Below, piece by piece: positions 7,440-43,561 of a stretch of DNA of 64,000 bases. The notes under the pieces are model-generated. The model was not told the DNA's origin, searched no databases, and was given only the letters and a program-made list of their open reading frames with translations. Position 1 is the stretch's first letter. Each line of letters starts with the position of its first letter. The position numbers and the translations under genes were made by a program. The DNA comes from Acidobacteriaceae bacterium (GTDB taxonomy: Bacteria > Acidobacteriota > Terriglobia > Terriglobales > Acidobacteriaceae), in NCBI GenBank assembly GCA_028283625.1, contig JAPWKG010000027.1, positions 1 to 64,000 on the forward strand, in the 5' to 3' direction.

Positions 7440-7766
7440 GGTCGTACGAAAAAACTCTGTAAAACCTTTTGATGCTAGCAGACCTGCGGCGGCGCTAAAT
7501 TCTGCGATGACTTCTTGCGACCTGCTGCGTCCAACCGACACGAACCCCACCGCGAGTCGCGCTCAGGAAGCCTCCGCGGATCTGTTTCGGAAACACCCTT
7601 CTTTTCGGAGTCGCCTGTGCAGCGAATGGTAGTATGGTCAGAGCCCGGCAAACCCATCGGAGCAACTTCCCACCCCGCCTGTAAGCACCGTGATTTGTGC
7701 ATGCCGGTGGAGGGCGGAGCGTCCGGTGGCCGCAGCGTCAGTGGCCATCTTGAGCGGACGGAATGC
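7440..7766. other. Long divergent intergenic region between smpB and the secretin gene
   Basis: No gene is convincing here, although a frame continuous with the secretin runs through part of it. TAGTAT at 7630-7635 could be a -10 element for the secretin operon, without a good -35. The stretch 7705-7760 is GC-rich and could fold, but it did not match any riboswitch or small-RNA consensus I know. Confidence 0.35.
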
Positions 7767-10289
7767 ATGCAGCAACCGGGATTCGTGCGGCGACTCACAC
7801 AGAACAATCTTGTTTCCAGCCTTTTTGCCCTCGGCGCGCTTGCGTTGCTGTTGGCTGCCTCCACCCCGTCGGCCCACGCTCAATCCGCTGCCAAGTGGAG
7901 TAAGCGCGGTGAAGCGGCTGAGGCCAAAGATAACTACGATGAAGCCTTCGAGGATTTCCGACAGGCTCATCTTAAAAAGCCAAGCGATCTGCGCTACAAG
8001 GCTCGCTATGAGCGTCTTCGCTTCGAGGCTGCGAACCAGCATCTGGACCGCGGCCGTGTGCTGCGCCAGAGTGGCGACCTTGCGGGAGCGATCGCCGAAT
8101 TTTCGCGCTCCCTGCAGATCGATCCGGGCAATGAGGCGTCTGCGCAGGAGTTGCAGCAGATCGCCCGTCCGACTGTTGGTCCGGGTGGAAGCGCTTCGAC
8201 CGCCCCAGGTGGAGCTCCCGGAGCTGCGACGGCCGGACAGAGCGCGCCTGGCAGCGATCTTCAGCCCATCGTCGGCGAGCAGATTCCGCATCAGGTGCAG
8301 GTGCAGCGTGATATTGCCTCCATGGCATCGCCGGTTGCGCTCAAGCCGGTTTCCGATGACCCGATTACGCTTCACATGGTGGAAGACACGAAGGTCATCT
8401 ATCAGGCCATCGGCAAAGCCGCTGGCCTGAACGTTATTTTTGACCCGGACTATACCTCCAAACGCATTCCGGTTGACCTGACCAACGTTTCGCTTTTTGA
8501 CGCGTTACGGATTGTCGGCACGCTGGGCGGCACCTTTTGGAAGCCGGTAACCTCGAATACAATTTTTGTTGCGCAGAACAACCGCACCAAGCGCACAGAT
8601 CTGGATGATCTCGCGGTACAGACCTTTTATCTGACCAACGTTTCCCAGCAAAACGATGCCAATGAAGTTCTGGTGGCTCTGCGTAACCTGCTGGACCCCT
8701 CGATCAAGATTTATCTGGTTGCCAGCCAGAACGCGATTGTGATGCGTGCTTCGCCGGACCAGCTTGTGCTGGCGGAAAAGCTGATCAACGATCTCGACCG
8801 CACCCGCGCCGAAGTCATTATCGATGTCGCGGTGCTTGAAGTTTCCCGTCAAAAGGAGCGCGATCTCGGCATTACGTTGCCGACGAGCTTCGGTCTGACA
8901 CCGCAGACCTCGAACGCGAATACCTCTTCCAGTTCGTCGAGCTCTTCCAGCAGCTCTTCGTCGTCCAGCTCTTCAACGAGCACGACCTCCAACATCACGC
9001 TGAATACACTCGGCAATCTGAATGCGACGAACTTCGCTGTCTCGCTCTCCGGCGGCACGGTGAATGCGCTGCTGACCGACTCGGACACACGCATTCTGCA
9101 GAACCCTCGTATTCGCGCCACGGACGGACAGCGTTCGACGCTCAAGATCGGCTCCAAGATTCCGGTCGCAACGGGTAGCTACAACGCCGGTGTGTCGACA
9201 GGTGTTTCCTCCATCGGTGTTCAGACGCAGTTCACCTACCTTGACGTCGGTGTAAACATCGACATCACCCCGACTGTGCACTACGATCACGAAATTTCCC
9301 TGAAGCTGAAGGTGGAAATTTCCTCGCAGAACGGCAGCGTAACGATTTCTGACGTTACAGAACCGATCATCTCTCAGCGAGTTGCCGAGCAGGTGATTCA
9401 GCTCAAGGATGGCGAGCCTTCGCTGCTTGCCGGCCTGTTCCAGCAGCAGGATACGACCGCGGTAAACGGTACGCCTGGGCTCGGTGAAATCCCTCTGCTC
9501 AAGTACTTCTTCTCCTCGCAGGACAAAACACGCCAGCAGGACGAGATCGTCTTTCTGTTGATCCCTCACATTGTGCGTGAGTCGGTGCTTACGGATGAGA
9601 ATACTCGTCCCATCTATACCGGCACATCACAGTCTGTCGAGCTGATCCGTCGCGATCCTTCCGAGGTGCTGGCGGCTACGGCTGCGGCTCAGGCTGCTCA
9701 TTCCGCGGCTTCGCCGGGATCTCCGCTAAGTAATACGACCTCGTCTAACGCTGCTTCGGCAATGCTCGGACAGATTGCGCAGCAAAATCATCCGCTGCAG
9801 CAGGGTATGGTTCCTCCGAGCTCAGCCGCCGCGGCCGCCGGAGCAACGGTGAACTCCGCCCCCGGAACGATGGTGGCTCCTGTCTCCTTCTCGCTGACGC
9901 CTGCGGTTGCGAATCAGGCGGTAGGTTCGACCTTCCAGGTTGCTTTGACGGCAGCGAATGCGAAGGACCTTTACAGCGTGCCGGTACAGCTGCAGTTTGA
10001 TCCCAAGGTGTTGCAGTTGGTGAATGTGGACTCTGGCGATCTGCTCGGCAAGGACGGACAGGCGGTTGCTCTTGTGCATCGTGACGAGGGCAATGGAACG
10101 GTCACGATCTCGGCATCGCGTCCGCCGTCTGTGCGCGGTGTGGATGGTCAGGGCGCGGTTGCGATGCTGACGTTCAAGGCGATTGCTCCCGGGAACGCAA
10201 CACTGGCTCTTGTGCGCATCGGTGCCAAGAACTCGAACGGTGCAAGCCTGCCGACCGTAGGAACGCAGGGCCTTGTGCACGTTCAGTAG
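7767..10289 (+). CDS. gspD: Type II/IV-type secretin with N-terminal TPR and C-terminal cohesin-like domain
   Basis: The ATG at 7767 puts a signal peptide first (LFALGALALLLAASTPSAHAQ). The frame is open to 7515, but that part has no signal or domain character. The 840-residue protein has TPR-like helices (about residues 30-125), a low-complexity linker and secretin N-domains (about 190-380). A run of 17 serines follows (about 387-403), then the secretin channel domain with EIPLLKYFFSSQDKTRQQDEIVFLLIP-type sequence near residue 580, written here only as a landmark at 9487-9575. The last 140 residues (from about 9880) match a cohesin fold: SFSLTP...VGSTFQVAL, LQFDPKVLQLVNV, and GQGAVAMLTFKAI. 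Secretins form the outer-membrane pore for type II secretion or pili. Two pseudopilin genes follow directly. Confidence 0.9.
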   Translation: MQQPGFVRRLTQNNLVSSLFALGALALLLAASTPSAHAQSAAKWSKRGEAAEAKDNYDEAFEDFRQAHLKKPSDLRYKARYERLRFEAANQHLDRGRVLRQSGDLAGAIAEFSRSLQIDPGNEASAQELQQIARPTVGPGGSASTAPGGAPGAATAGQSAPGSDLQPIVGEQIPHQVQVQRDIASMASPVALKPVSDDPITLHMVEDTKVIYQAIGKAAGLNVIFDPDYTSKRIPVDLTNVSLFDALRIVGTLGGTFWKPVTSNTIFVAQNNRTKRTDLDDLAVQTFYLTNVSQQNDANEVLVALRNLLDPSIKIYLVASQNAIVMRASPDQLVLAEKLINDLDRTRAEVIIDVAVLEVSRQKERDLGITLPTSFGLTPQTSNANTSSSSSSSSSSSSSSSSSTSTTSNITLNTLGNLNATNFAVSLSGGTVNALLTDSDTRILQNPRIRATDGQRSTLKIGSKIPVATGSYNAGVSTGVSSIGVQTQFTYLDVGVNIDITPTVHYDHEISLKLKVEISSQNGSVTISDVTEPIISQRVAEQVIQLKDGEPSLLAGLFQQQDTTAVNGTPGLGEIPLLKYFFSSQDKTRQQDEIVFLLIPHIVRESVLTDENTRPIYTGTSQSVELIRRDPSEVLAATAAAQAAHSAASPGSPLSNTTSSNAASAMLGQIAQQNHPLQQGMVPPSSAAAAAGATVNSAPGTMVAPVSFSLTPAVANQAVGSTFQVALTAANAKDLYSVPVQLQFDPKVLQLVNVDSGDLLGKDGQAVALVHRDEGNGTVTISASRPPSVRGVDGQGAVAMLTFKAIAPGNATLALVRIGAKNSNGASLPTVGTQGLVHVQ
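8925..8975 (+). repeat. Poly-serine tract (17 codons) inside the secretin
   Basis: Seventeen consecutive Ser codons use all six Ser codons (TCT, TCC, TCA, TCG, AGT, AGC). The DNA is therefore not a simple repeat, which points to selection for a serine linker rather than slippage. It lies between a secretin N-domain and the channel domain. Confidence 0.9.
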
Positions 10290-10320
10290 CGACCGGGACG
10301 CGAAAGGAAGGGGAGAGCGG

Positions 10321-10812
10321 ATGATTTCTGCCAAGACACTGCGCAAGCACCGCCTCCCTGCGCCCTTTGCGCCGGAAGCAGGGCTAACGCTTCTGGAGCT
10401 GATCATCGTTGTAGCGATGGTGTCTATTTTGGCCTCAGCAGCGGTACCGCTCGTGCGGCTCCAGATAAGGCGTTCCAAGGAAAAAGAGCTTCGAGTCGAC
10501 CTTTGGGAGATGCGCCGGGCCATCGATGCCTATAAGGACGCCGCAGATAAAGGTGGCATTCAAACCAAAGCGGATTCGAACAACTATCCGCCGGATCTGC
10601 AGACTCTGGTGGATGGTGTCGACATTCAGGATAAAAAAGTACGTTTTTTGCGGGAGATCCCCACAGACCCCATGACCAAATCGACTGATTGGGGGATGCG
10701 GTCCAATCAGGATGAGGCCGATTCCTCCAGCTGGGGCGGGCAGAACGTTTTTGATGTCTACACGAAGTCCGACGGTACAGCTTTAGATGGGACCAAGTAC
10801 AGCGCATGGTGA
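10321..10812 (+). CDS. Type II secretion pseudopilin (GspG/GspH-like)
   Basis: Start chosen at ATG 10321, after a strong AGGAAGGGGAG ribosome binding site and 31 bases after the secretin stop. The 163-residue protein has a 21-residue leader and the class III prepilin site G|LTLLELIIVV with Glu at +5, then a hydrophobic helix (VAMVSILASAAVPLV). The globular part (YPPDLQTLVDGVDI..., FLREIPTDPMTKSTDWGMRS) follows the GspG pattern of a C-terminal Pro-Asp loop. It needs a prepilin peptidase, which is not in the window. Its stop overlaps the next pseudopilin start. Confidence 0.88.
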   Translation: MISAKTLRKHRLPAPFAPEAGLTLLELIIVVAMVSILASAAVPLVRLQIRRSKEKELRVDLWEMRRAIDAYKDAADKGGIQTKADSNNYPPDLQTLVDGVDIQDKKVRFLREIPTDPMTKSTDWGMRSNQDEADSSSWGGQNVFDVYTKSDGTALDGTKYSAW

Positions 10813-11225
10813 TGACGAGGACAAAGCGGCCGGCAAGCAGGGAAGAGCGAGGGTTTACGCTCGTCGAACTAATGATTGTCATGGCGATCATCGGTCTTCT
10901 GGCCTCGATCGCTGTTCCGGCGTTTCTGAATAACGTGCGCAGAGCCAAGGAGGCGGTTTTGCGGGAGGATCTCCATACGCTGCGTCAGGCAATCGATAGC
11001 TACACGGTCGATAAGGAAAAGGCACCGCAGTCGCTGGATGACCTGGTTCAGGGCGGCTACTTGAAGGAAGTGCCTCGCGATCCGATCACCAATAGCCCGG
11101 ATACATGGATTACCAGCCAATCGGATACCCTTACGGATATCAACGAAACCCAGGGCGGAATCGACAACGTGCACTCCGGGGCGCAATCGTTGGCTTCAGA
11201 CGGTACCAGCTATAACACTTGGTAG
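10806..11225 (+). CDS. gspG: Type II secretion major pseudopilin, GspG-like
   Basis: This 139-residue protein has the prepilin site RG|FTLVELMIVMAIIGLLASIAVP with Glu at +5. The GspG landmarks follow: LREDLHTLRQAIDSYTVDK, PQSLDDLVQGGYLKEVPRDPITN and a C-terminal SLASDGTSYNTW. ATG 10806 or ATG 10812 (in a TGATG overlap with the previous stop) may be the start; the second gives the tidier coupling. The two paralogous pseudopilins share the same ending style (KYSAW and YNTW), so they look like a local duplication. No GspE/F/L/M genes lie beside them. Confidence 0.9.
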   Translation: MVMTRTKRPASREERGFTLVELMIVMAIIGLLASIAVPAFLNNVRRAKEAVLREDLHTLRQAIDSYTVDKEKAPQSLDDLVQGGYLKEVPRDPITNSPDTWITSQSDTLTDINETQGGIDNVHSGAQSLASDGTSYNTW

Positions 11226-40791: not shown

Positions 40792-42141
40792 ATGTCGACT
40801 CCTGACGCGGCGCAGACTGGCGCCGCGAGCATTACCCCGCATAAAGGCAAGCTTGGCATCATGATTCCGGGCATGGGCGCAGTTGCGACCACGCTCATCG
40901 CCGGCGTAGAGGCTGTACGCCGTGGCTTCGCCAAGCCGTTTGGTTCCATGTCGCAAATGGGAACCATTCGTCTGGGCAAGCGCACCGATGACCGCTCGCC
41001 GCTCATCAAGGATTTTGCCCCGCTGGCTCCGCTTGAAGATATCGTCTTCACGGGCTGGGATATCTTCGGCGGCAACCTGTATGACGCAGCGAAAACGGCT
41101 GCAGTGCTCGACCGTGACCAGCTCGAGCAGATGAAGGACTTCCTCTCGTCGATCGAGCCGATGCCGGCTGCCTTCGATCAGTCCTGGGTCAAGCGTCTTG
41201 ACCCGAAGGTGCAGAAGAAGGGCAAGAACAAGTGCGATCTGGCGAACCAGATCCGCAATGATATTGCGGAGTTCCGTGCGAGCTCGGGTACCGATCGTCA
41301 GGTGATGATCTGGTGCGGGTCGACGGAAATCTATAAGGAGCAGTCGGAAGTTCACCAGACGCTCGAAGCCTTTGAAAAGGGCCTGGTTGAAGATCATCCG
41401 GATATCTCGCCGTCGATGCTCTATGCCTGGGCTGCTCTGAAGGAAGGCATTCCGTTTGCGAACGGTGCACCGAACCTTACGGTAGATATTCCTGCGCTGC
41501 AGGAGCTGTCGAAGCAAATGGGCGCCCCGATCTGCGGTAAGGACTTCAAGACTGGCCAGACCTTCATCAAGACGGTTCTGGCTCCCGGCTTCAAGGTGCG
41601 TCAGCTTGGCGTTTCCGGCTGGTATTCGACCAACATCCTGGGCAACCGCGATGGCGAAGTGCTGGACGATCCGGATAACTTCAAGACCAAGGAAGTTTCG
41701 AAGCTTGGCGTACTCGAGCACATCTTCGAGCCGGAGAAGAACCCGGAGCTGTACGGCGATATCTTCCACAAGGTGCGTATCAATTACTACCCGCCGCGTG
41801 GTGATAACAAAGAAGGCTGGGACAACATCGACATCTTCGGTTGGCTCGGTTATCCGATGCAGATCAAGGTCGATTTCCTTTGCCGTGACTCGATTCTGGC
41901 AGCTCCGCTGGCGCTCGATCTCTGCCTCTTCCTGGATCTGGCACAGCGTACCCCGGCTCTCAAGCACCTGGGCATCCAGGAGTGGCTGAGCTTCTACTTC
42001 AAGGATCCTGATTCGGCCCCGGGTGTCTACCCTGAGCACGATCTGTTCATCCAGAACATGAAGCTGAAGAACACGCTGCGCCACGTTATGGGCGAGGATC
42101 TGATCACGCACCTCGGTCTCGATTACTACGGCAACGACTAG
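40792..42141 (+). CDS. ino1: Inositol-3-phosphate synthase
   Basis: Ino1 converts glucose 6-phosphate to inositol 3-phosphate with NAD. The 449-residue protein has the N-terminal Rossmann loop IMIPGMGAVATTLIAGVEA, then WDIFGGNLYDAAK. NGAPNLTVDIPAL, CGKDFKTGQTFIKTVLAPG, SGWYSTNILGNRDGEVLDD and VDFLCRDSILAAPLALDL are also family blocks. This bacterial form resembles actinobacterial and archaeal enzymes. It could supply inositol for phosphoinositides or osmolytes. A very stable hairpin follows. Confidence 0.95.
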   Translation: MSTPDAAQTGAASITPHKGKLGIMIPGMGAVATTLIAGVEAVRRGFAKPFGSMSQMGTIRLGKRTDDRSPLIKDFAPLAPLEDIVFTGWDIFGGNLYDAAKTAAVLDRDQLEQMKDFLSSIEPMPAAFDQSWVKRLDPKVQKKGKNKCDLANQIRNDIAEFRASSGTDRQVMIWCGSTEIYKEQSEVHQTLEAFEKGLVEDHPDISPSMLYAWAALKEGIPFANGAPNLTVDIPALQELSKQMGAPICGKDFKTGQTFIKTVLAPGFKVRQLGVSGWYSTNILGNRDGEVLDDPDNFKTKEVSKLGVLEHIFEPEKNPELYGDIFHKVRINYYPPRGDNKEGWDNIDIFGWLGYPMQIKVDFLCRDSILAAPLALDLCLFLDLAQRTPALKHLGIQEWLSFYFKDPDSAPGVYPEHDLFIQNMKLKNTLRHVMGEDLITHLGLDYYGND

Positions 42142-42150
42142 TTTTCTGGT

Positions 42151-42198
42151 CGTAATGTAGAAAGCCCCGGCGAGCCTGCCGGGGCTTTCTACGTTACG
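42151..42198 (+). terminator. Very long terminator-like hairpin after ino1
   Basis: The 21-base arms 42151-42171 and 42178-42198 pair fully (one G-U). They include GAAAGCCCCGGC / GCCGGGGCTTTC around a GAGCCT loop. There is no U-tract after the stem. Confidence 0.75.
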
Positions 42199-42215
42199 GC
42201 GTAGCATGAAGAGCG

Positions 42216-42839
42216 ATGGGTGAGTTGGATCTTCAAAGAAGAACGCTGCGGCTTTATGGAGAGCTTGTGCGCCAGAAATCCTCCTGGGCGGGAAAGCTGG
42301 TTGTCTCTGCGGGAAGCGGCGTTTCGTCGAGCGGGATATGTGCTGCGGTTGCGTTGGCCGGGGGCGCTTGTCTGGCGATTGATTCTGATGCCGCGTCTGT
42401 ACGGTCGATCTACCGCGAAGGCGGTGTGGACTTTTTCGTGAACTCACTGGACGAGGCCCTGAGAGCGCTCAAAAATGAAGTGCGGCAAGGGAGGCCGATC
42501 GCGGTGGCGTTGGCTGCCGATCCCGCGATTGCACTTGGGGAGTACAGCAAGCGTGGTGTACTTGCCGATCTTGCTGTGAATTGCGCTTCATTTCGGGCAC
42601 GGGAGCATGTCGCCTGGTTGGGAACCAGGGAATCGGTGTCTTTGACCCAATGGCTGCTGGATCGTGGTTGGTCTGAGTCTGTGATTGCAGGGAAAACGGA
42701 GTGGCACTTTGGGCCGGAGGATGTCCGGCTGCGCTGGGTCAACGGTATCGCCCGTTACCAGCGTTCCGCTGCCCGCGAGCCGCGTGTTGTGTGGCTCGCG
42801 GAAGCCGAACGTACTGCTTATACCTCCAGCACGCTGTAG
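42216..42839 (+). CDS. Stand-alone urocanase Rossmann-domain-like protein
   Basis: A 207-residue soluble protein. Residues 25-122 line up over their whole length with the inserted NAD-binding domain of urocanate hydratase, by memory of the P. putida HutU sequence. The shared pattern is GKxxxxAGxG, AxxLAGGACLAI, a DxDEALR helix, GRPIAVALxxDPAxAL and KRGVLADL. The urocanase TDQTSAHDP block that should follow is not conserved (NCASFRAREH), and the flanking urocanase domains are absent. A catalytic hut role is therefore unlikely. The rest (LTQWLLDRGWSESVIAGKTEW) is unrecognised. Its end overlaps convergent engB by 22 bases. Confidence 0.7.
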   Translation: MGELDLQRRTLRLYGELVRQKSSWAGKLVVSAGSGVSSSGICAAVALAGGACLAIDSDAASVRSIYREGGVDFFVNSLDEALRALKNEVRQGRPIAVALAADPAIALGEYSKRGVLADLAVNCASFRAREHVAWLGTRESVSLTQWLLDRGWSESVIAGKTEWHFGPEDVRLRWVNGIARYQRSAAREPRVVWLAEAERTAYTSSTL

Positions 42840-43420
42840 ATCTCGCTCCAAAGCTCCTTGATGCCAGCGTCATTTTTGCTCGAAACGGTAAGGATACGGT
42901 CCTGTCCATGCGCTTTCTTTAGGGCGGCAACGGACTTCGCTAACTGATTGTTGCTGAGCCGGTCAGACTTCGTACCCACGACCAGATGCGGACGTTGCAT
43001 TTGTTTGAGTGCCGCGATGAGCAGAGTGTCCGACTCCTGCGGAGGGATGTTTGTATCGACCAGGCAGAGGCAGAGCGCCAACTGCTGGCGTTCGGCCAGA
43101 TACGGCTCGATAAATTTGGGCCACTCCGCAGAGATGGACTTTGAGATTTTGGCATAGCCGTAGCCGGGAAGATCCGCAAAGATCAGCGAAGGGACCGCTT
43201 TGCTGCCTTGATGCAGCGCAAAGAAGTTGATGGCTCTCGTTCGGCCAGGAGTGGAGGATACCTTGGCGGTGGCTTCGCCGACCAGCGTATTCAACAGAGA
43301 GCTTTTGCCAACGTTCGAGCGACCGAGAAAGGCGATCTCAGGAGCGTCGTTGGTCTTGGCGGCGGAGGGGAAGTGTTCCGGGCTCATCGCCGAAAGAAGG
43401 AATTTAGGGGAAAGCTTCAT
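42818..43420 (-). CDS. engB: Ribosome biogenesis GTPase EngB/YsxC
   Basis: EngB is an essential GTPase for 50S assembly. The 200-residue protein has G1 GRSNVGKSSLLNTLVG (about residues 32-47), G2 STPGRTRAINFF, G3 DLPGYGYA (about 83), G4 as GTKSDRL and G5 near VSSKNDAG. The start is ATG 43420, with TACTCT 8 bases upstream and TTGGCG 17 bp further up. No ribosome binding site is seen. Its 3' end overlaps the convergent urocanase-like gene. Confidence 0.95.
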   Translation of the reverse strand: MKLSPKFLLSAMSPEHFPSAAKTNDAPEIAFLGRSNVGKSSLLNTLVGEATAKVSSTPGRTRAINFFALHQGSKAVPSLIFADLPGYGYAKISKSISAEWPKFIEPYLAERQQLALCLCLVDTNIPPQESDTLLIAALKQMQRPHLVVGTKSDRLSNNQLAKSVAALKKAHGQDRILTVSSKNDAGIKELWSEIYSVLEV

Positions 43421-43428
43421 CGGTTTCT

Positions 43429-43457
43429 AGAGTAGTTTCTTGGCCGCGCAACGCCAA
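43429..43457 (-). promoter_or_regulatory. Candidate leaderless promoter of engB
   Basis: On the minus strand TTGGCG and TACTCT are 17 bp apart. The -10 ends 8 bases before the ATG. Confidence 0.5.
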
Positions 43458-43561
43458 GCGAGTGGGAAAGAAAATTCCGAAGCACTGCTTTCTTTATGGT
43501 GCATTTTCTGCGTCAGGCTCTATGATGAGGGCACTTCGCACAGTCGTTGAGGTGATTCTCT

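Follow-up and report, generated by a model that had tools for sequence, protein, structure and literature searches.

A stand-alone descendant of urocanate hydratase in the Acidobacteriaceae, probably reduced in place and possibly kept for a non-catalytic role

Domains derived from an enzyme and kept without it are known from other enzymes, and the stand-alone paralogues of aminoacyl-tRNA synthetases are such domains, retained without the original chemistry. The closest described systems to the gene dealt with here are urocanate hydratase (HutU), an enzyme of histidine degradation, and the thiourocanate and S-methylthiourocanate hydratases. In the P. putida structure of HutU, the contacts with NAD are, as we take them, the residues GMG, the acidic residue after strand 2, R203, N244 and QTSAH. 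The stretch of DNA analysed in this work (the window, i.e., 64,000 nucleotides of the Acidobacteriaceae contig JAPWKG010000027.1) holds at 42216..42839 of the forward strand a gene with an ATG start and no internal stops, coding for a stand-alone urocanase-derived protein of 207 amino acids. On balance, we favor the interpretation that this gene is the remnant of a native hutU, reduced in place and kept for a non-catalytic binding job performed through its strand 3 and helix 3 face.

A preliminary description of this gene, made from its letters only, took it for a stand-alone and diverged urocanase Rossmann domain, and profile, sequence and fold comparisons all bear this out, none of them finding a better match in another Rossmann family. 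Residues 21-125 (42276..42590, forward strand) match positions 22-126 of the 209 in the Pfam urocanase Rossmann-like domain, PF01175 (E 7.5e-12; 45.8 bits, cut-off 23.2), and so does every one of the 52 members of the family alignment (A2) at E <=0.01. The NCBIfam models matched are those of S-methyl thiourocanate, thiourocanate and urocanate hydratase (E 3.8e-10 to 6.1e-8), all with scores far under the curated cut-offs (31.8 against 375 bits for the hutU equivalog, TIGR01228), and among PDB sequences the top ten all belong to urocanases or thiourocanate hydratases, headed by 1x87 (E 1.2e-6). The loop, strands and helix on which the first description relied are present, and TDQTSAHDP is missing as it said. 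Neither Urocanase_N nor Urocanase_C is found in the open reading frame by a Pfam scan up to E 10, a full HutU having ~555 amino acids. Chance is excluded as a source of the likeness by stand-alone homologues in 16 of the 28 genomes of the genus (counting the window's own and a contig-end fragment, G012). Pfam and NCBIfam gave models for the domain and for the full-length enzymes and none for the stand-alone form. Annotators should note that the window protein, which passes the Pfam urocanase cut-off, could get named a urocanase, though it can hardly be one. The claim that no such family has been described holds within the reach of our searches, PF01175 capturing the domain itself: no description of the stand-alone form was found in the open-licence literature, a scope outside which most subscription journals lie. 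Within that scope, what appears to be new is the family, along with its origin in place and the surface that it has retained.

The predicted fold agrees with the sequence matches. The AlphaFold2 model of the whole window protein, built on A2, reaches a pLDDT of 92.6 and a pTM of 0.90, and the 17 Foldseek matches at E <=0.001 are all urocanases or thiourocanate hydratases, mostly aligned over ~125 columns. The superposition over the whole length comes from VIA-align, which places 204 of the 207 residues on 1UWK chain B 133-426 (Z 15.8, rmsd 2.9); its top match is 7NED (Z 16.2), and the best other protein listed has Z 8.1. The comparison of structures that had been proposed as a check thus finds the urocanase fold as the best match for the model. 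A member from Terriglobus roseus gives the same picture (pLDDT 92.3; Z 20.4 over 216 residues at rmsd 2.0 A, best other protein Z 10.5), both predicted models having a Rossmann-like fold with urocanases far ahead of other Rossmann folds. As AlphaFold2 has presumably seen urocanases in training, these models show compatibility with the fold more than they prove it.

Where the first description departs from our results is the last part of the protein, which it considered a new tail of 80 residues added to the domain. Profiles with reversed controls and the fold comparison show instead that these residues form the remainder of that domain, behind an internal deletion, and a tail arising de novo is ruled out by the match of the tail profile to HutU together with the superposition. 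Aligned by hhalign, A2 and the 15 native HutU of alignment A3 match with a probability of 99.9 and an E-value of 1.4e-34 over HutU 163-447. The tail on its own (from residue 122), compared with HutU behind residue 262, gives E 1.7e-6, against 0.84-0.92 in three controls with one side reversed; likewise, hmmsearch with the tail matches HutU collinearly (at ~370-436 in proteins of usual length; best E 2.6e-9), and reversed proteins give 0.99 or worse. Residues 165-207 (42708..42836, forward strand) are therefore homologous to HutU ~370-436, i.e., the end of the central domain and the start of Urocanase_C (PF17392), of which weak matches under the cut-off occur in one of the 52 members of A2 and, at the expected place, in two other carriers (G117 and G129). 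Between the two homologous parts lies a shortened, fast-changing region, residues 126-164 (42591..42707, forward strand), whose counterpart in HutU is TDQTSAHDP with the stretch that follows, and it is the internal deletion that removed TDQTSAHDP from the stand-alone form. As for the flanking catalytic halves, held to be gone, this is true of the N-terminal one, whereas the first part of the C-terminal one persists in an eroded form.

A profile search covered 150 genomes sampled from the window's family and found the stand-alone form in 45, belonging to 21 of 79 genera by a hand count of the result rows. Carriers in this family of soil bacteria include Terriglobus roseus DSM 18391, Edaphobacter aggregans DSM 19364, Acidipila rosea, Terracidiphilus gabretensis, Occallatibacter savannae, Acidicapsa dinghuensis and a Granulicella sp. 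Native-type HutU was recognized by score in 78 of the same genomes (E ~1e-37 to 1e-45, with some frames cut at contig ends), and in none of the 150 was it seen together with the stand-alone form; besides the 45 carriers, one genome (G092) has a half-decayed form of 471 amino acids. For the study of loci we took the best 80 of 242 relatives, picked by motif patterns, of which 62 are stand-alone and 18 native and full; 51 of the 52 rows of A2 come from these 62. In an IQ-TREE tree of 91 rows, which took 12 of the 18 native full loci and omits L072 (start rule failed), L085 and L133 (cut at contig ends) and L138 (masked stretch), the 57 stand-alone proteins form one side of a branch with a support of 100/100, the tree being unrooted, with a bootstrap not quite settled and several long branches. 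Outside the family, weak PF01175 matches were noticed in two genomes (G372, E 4.2e-7; G392, E 2.9e-11), which could be either cut-off genes or further diverged stand-alone forms.

The distribution of constraint along the stand-alone protein is inverted compared to that of HutU: most of the NAD loop is lost, and so is QTSAH, and DFxV..LxEAxRxLKNExR is nearly invariant. The remnant of the glycine-rich loop, residues 31-44 (42306..42347, forward strand), corresponds to HutU columns 174-186, with a mean of 2.0 bits in the stand-alone form against 4.2 in HutU of other types, and columns 263-271 (TDQTSAHDP) have 1.0 against 4.1. The family's most constrained stretch is the module of strand 3 and helix 3 (R.G..DF.V..L.EA.R.LKNE.R; residues 67-90, 42414..42485, forward strand), and helix 3 (columns 220-234) rises to 3.6 bits from 2.5. 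The values for the other types are rough, since this set is defined by the lack of the native motif (DFMVNSLDEALRILKN.[IV]RK) and has several closely related rows from the phylum, and since the 30 phylum loci are those with the highest scores among 198 positive genomes. The gain of columns 214-232 was reached by two of 120 sliding windows, itself included, for a stretch chosen after the table had been seen. As the first loci had been picked by motif and the other-type set by lacking it, conservation in helix 3 was counted again on 54 stand-alone rows obtained by whole-protein or profile searches, namely 14 of the 20 rows of alignment A1 (which omits G003, G026 and G012 of the genus) and 40 further loci, 33 of which would match the motif patterns too and 35 a looser motif. 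In this count, L53, E80, K86, R90, G114 and W174 are the same residue in all 54 rows, F73, V75 and R83 in 53, N87 and R113 in 52, D72 in 51 and R67 in 48. Since native HutU, too, conserves helix 3, some of this conservation could reflect what the domain of this lineage needs for folding.

Could the protein nevertheless be a sensor of redox or nucleotide state, its contracted Rossmann domain accepting NAD(H) or some related ligand in an altered pocket? The Rossmann-like fold is predicted with high confidence, and some of the pocket persists: G33 is found in 33 of the 54 rows, G at position 38 in 34, A44 in 50, and D or E at position 56, behind strand 2, in 41. The acidic residue among the HutU contacts is thus largely kept and one glycine in part, which makes weak nucleotide binding possible. 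On the other hand, N244 and R203 are no longer fixed, loop columns 178-185, which have 4.3 bits in other-type HutU, are down to 0.9-2.6 here, QTSAH (265-269) falls to 0.7-0.9 or 1.0 bits, and the peak of conservation lies on helix 3, away from the glycine loop. No conserved glycine-rich dinucleotide loop is found among the 54 rows, the commonest residue at positions 36, 37 and 39 occurring in just 13, 12 and 11 of them. GGMGGAQ and TDQTS.HD, present in 98-100% of 15 native and 60 other-type HutU domains (29 phylum, 18 carrier, 11 genus and two order loci, selected by the loop itself, so that their loop percentage is partly circular), are both missing from the window protein, and their columns are variable in 52 stand-alone rows. 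The binding of NAD suggested in the preliminary description is weakly supported, by the partly kept glycine and acidic residue, and we consider a sensor of this kind unlikely. Most likely the protein serves as a binding module without catalysis, one in which NAD is not bound the way HutU binds it.

The place of the gene on the chromosome speaks to its origin. Upstream of it lies the gene of an inositol-1-phosphate synthase (40792..42141, forward strand; PF07994/PF01658) and downstream, in convergent orientation, that of a 50S ribosome-binding GTPase (42818..43420, reverse strand; PF01926), which we take to be EngB/YsxC. At their 3′ ends, the small gene and the GTPase gene overlap by 22 bases (42818-42839). 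A long GC-rich inverted repeat resembling a terminator (42150..42199, forward strand; folding of 42142-42205 gives -46.1 kcal/mol) takes up the space from the synthase to the ATG, so that an ordinary promoter would hardly fit behind it, and a similar repeat was seen by eye in 16 of the 17 listed relatives with a synthase neighbor, where folding covered the first 60 bases. A sigma-70 scan found no promoter-like site in 41900-43500, and did not list the long hairpin either.

Other genera keep a different arrangement. In the full locus L122 the order is leucyl aminopeptidase family gene, SmpB, secretin, two pseudopilin-like genes, hutU, hutI and GTPase, where hutI is an amidohydrolase gene identified by the hutI model matched beside HutU in another genome (G034). 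The stand-alone loci L118, L112 and L115 have this same order with the small gene replacing hutU-hutI, as does L104, with no aminopeptidase listed. Among the 80 loci, with flanks of differing length, the GTPase cluster accompanies 46 stand-alone and three full loci, and the secretin cluster 30 stand-alone and 14 full ones. In the window, as in its nearest relatives, the small gene lies outside the secretin group and behind the inositol-1-phosphate synthase, still convergent with the GTPase; the window's own group sits 31 kb away (7515..11225), with a secretin of uncertain start (7515..10289; TPR repeats and a C-terminal cohesin domain, PF00963) followed by two pseudopilin-like genes (10273..10812, without a Pfam match, and 10806..11225), both recognized by their likeness to L122 and L118, and all three on the forward strand. 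The small gene occupying the native place of hutU-hutI in other genera, we conclude that the native hutU was reduced in place; a duplication with the native gene kept elsewhere is disfavored, as the two were not seen together in the 150 genomes and share one position. Two degenerate urocanases, L108 (546 amino acids, with YGGTG, QSGKPVG and TDQTSAHDP ruined) and L101 (471 amino acids, with the TDQTSAHDP segment deleted), were considered as direct ancestors and ruled out, for the tree groups both with HutU; they are therefore parallel decays, the same process having begun more than once.

The same neighborhood invites another explanation, namely that the protein works with the secretin and pseudopilins, e.g., as a cytoplasmic accessory factor of a secretion or pilus machine. 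A pseudopilin-like gene stands upstream on the same strand in 31 of the 62 stand-alone loci, in 24 of them at -14 to 121 bases from the start chosen by rule. Yet native hutU is found in the very same place (at 18 bases in L122), so that this linkage is inherited rather than acquired, and the window and its nearest relatives have the gene behind the inositol-phosphate synthase instead. We regard such a partnership as improbable.

Is the small gene kept by selection at all? In ten close pairs, chosen by hand, its dN/dS (Nei-Gojobori) is 0.19-0.44, compared to 0.09-0.15 for the GTPase gene (nine of the same pairs, two of them on 81 codons) and 0.03-0.09 for the inositol-phosphate synthase (eight of them), i.e., 1.3 to 13 times the values of its neighbors in the same pairs. 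Among the 22 listed pairs of smallest dS, the calculation omitting L085, L101, L108, L133 and L138, there are three distant pairs with 1.04-1.08 (dS 0.69-0.74) and one, L089-L092, with 0.92, these four not being among the ten chosen. Between the window and G006 the ratio is 0.20 overall, 0.058 in residues 65-98, 0.39 in the linker (126-165) and 0.18 in the tail (166-207), values that are rough owing to a dS of 1.1-2.3. The frame runs through the matched stretch in 44 of the 45 carriers over 21 genera (G137 and others being cut at contig ends); a stop was flagged in the matched stretch of four, in three of which (G071, G082 and G145) it lies behind the aligned domain, and in the fourth, G131, the frame is shortened and ends after the Rossmann part. 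The small gene is thus constrained by purifying selection but fast-evolving, and a recent pseudogene of hutU is disfavored by the open frames, the selection and the single clade.

A functionless remnant that decays slowly with its frame open by chance is improbable. Its fast evolution, the parallel decay of L101 and L108, the shortened frame of G131 and its absence from 12 of the 28 genomes of the genus, where the gene is evidently dispensable, would all be expected of such a remnant; the frames open throughout nearly all carriers, the low dN/dS of the close pairs, the positions invariant in all 54 rows and the confident models of two distant members would not. That the old domain now serves other chemistry in a new small enzyme, also proposed in the preliminary description, is very improbable: the polar residues E80, R83, K86, N87, R90 and R113, near-invariant in 52-54 of 54 rows, could be cited for it, but there is no positive evidence, His, Cys, Tyr and Asp are all missing from the invariant columns of 52 members, the neighbors shared across genera are secretin, pseudopilin, SmpB, aminopeptidase and GTPase genes, and the sole metabolic neighbor is the inositol-phosphate synthase, in 20 loci of one group. 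A role in anti-phage defense was rejected, PADLOC matching neither of two members.

As to the old chemistry, 27 of the 45 carriers have a HutU, either full-length or cut by a contig end, in which Urocanase_C scores over the cut-off, and since these are full-length HutU of other types, the short protein is evidently no replacement for the enzyme. None of the 29 HutU loci from these 27 genomes shows the native motif (one, L209, being a fragment without that region). The carriers' full-length HutU (L181-L209) are of several different types, resembling a repeated import of urocanase; they may have been either kept or imported, import being the more likely. No full-length urocanase was found in the window's genome (84.8% complete), whose sole PF01175 match is the small gene and which has no match to PF17392, none to hutH, and none to hutI over the cut-off. 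Urocanase_C was not found either in carriers that are 98-100% complete (G004, G024 and G035), and a hutH match is absent from 13 of the 45 carriers (G151 and G164 among them, by elimination). From the missing catalytic halves and the separate HutU of more than half of the carriers we infer that the small protein is not a urocanase and can hardly do the old chemistry.

The history that we favor, drawn from profile, fold comparison, synteny and tree, would run as follows. In one ancestor, the native hutU was reduced in place: its N-terminal half disappeared, together with the TDQTSAHDP segment and most of the catalytic half at the C-terminus, and hutI left the locus. The remaining 200-300 residues are predicted to fold as a complete but contracted central domain, in which the NAD pocket would be largely lost, with little or no binding of NAD in the HutU manner. 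Purifying selection would keep the protein for a non-catalytic job, in which the face of strand 3 and helix 3 (R67, D72, F73, V75, E80, R83, K86, N87 and R90, with R113-G114) is the putative binding site of a partner protein or an anionic ligand. Native HutU already carried this surface, and the job may therefore have been a second function of the enzyme, perhaps one that outlived it. It is tempting to go further and, more tentatively, to speculate that the native urocanase moonlighted through its helix 3 face, that this function outlived a lost histidine degradation while the enzyme shrank at its own locus until a regulator or adaptor was left, and that several descendants later imported a foreign urocanase. 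This reading, if true, would provide a traceable case of a moonlighting function surviving its enzyme, and sister lineages would supply half-decayed forms that arose in parallel. With the complete enzyme, the half-decayed and the domain-sized forms in related lineages, the question of how an enzyme turns into a non-enzyme becomes directly testable: the complete enzyme and the domain-sized product share one conserved gene position, and the surface kept by selection can be read from the comparison of constraint.

How the stand-alone form relates to the known systems can now be stated more precisely. With HutU (TIGR01228, PF01175) it shares a common origin, a correspondence of the whole window protein to HutU 133-426 by fold and of the family to 163-447 by profile and, in other genera, an identical gene position; it differs in having 207 amino acids instead of ~555, no catalytic halves, no TDQTSAHDP and an eroded glycine loop. 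With the native-type HutU of the family (18 of the 80 loci, e.g., L122) it shares the neighbors and the motif DFMVNSLDEALRILKN.[IV]RK, but this HutU is a complete enzyme with all the NAD and active-site motifs and adjoins hutI. This motif is found in 11 of the 13 HutU domains of the family and its order relatives, with near-forms in the other two, and in none of the 30 loci from across the phylum or the 29 HutU loci of the carriers, a distribution from which it would have arisen in the native enzyme before the reduction. The thiourocanate and S-methylthiourocanate hydratases provide the top fold matches (7NED as given above; 8Q9U/V, Z 16.0) and the best NCBIfam E-value; they are, in contrast, full-length enzymes, and are tied with HutU within one Z unit. 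Compared to the stand-alone paralogues of aminoacyl-tRNA synthetases, finally, the difference is that here the reduction took place at the native locus itself, and that many of the carriers have a second enzyme of the same activity.
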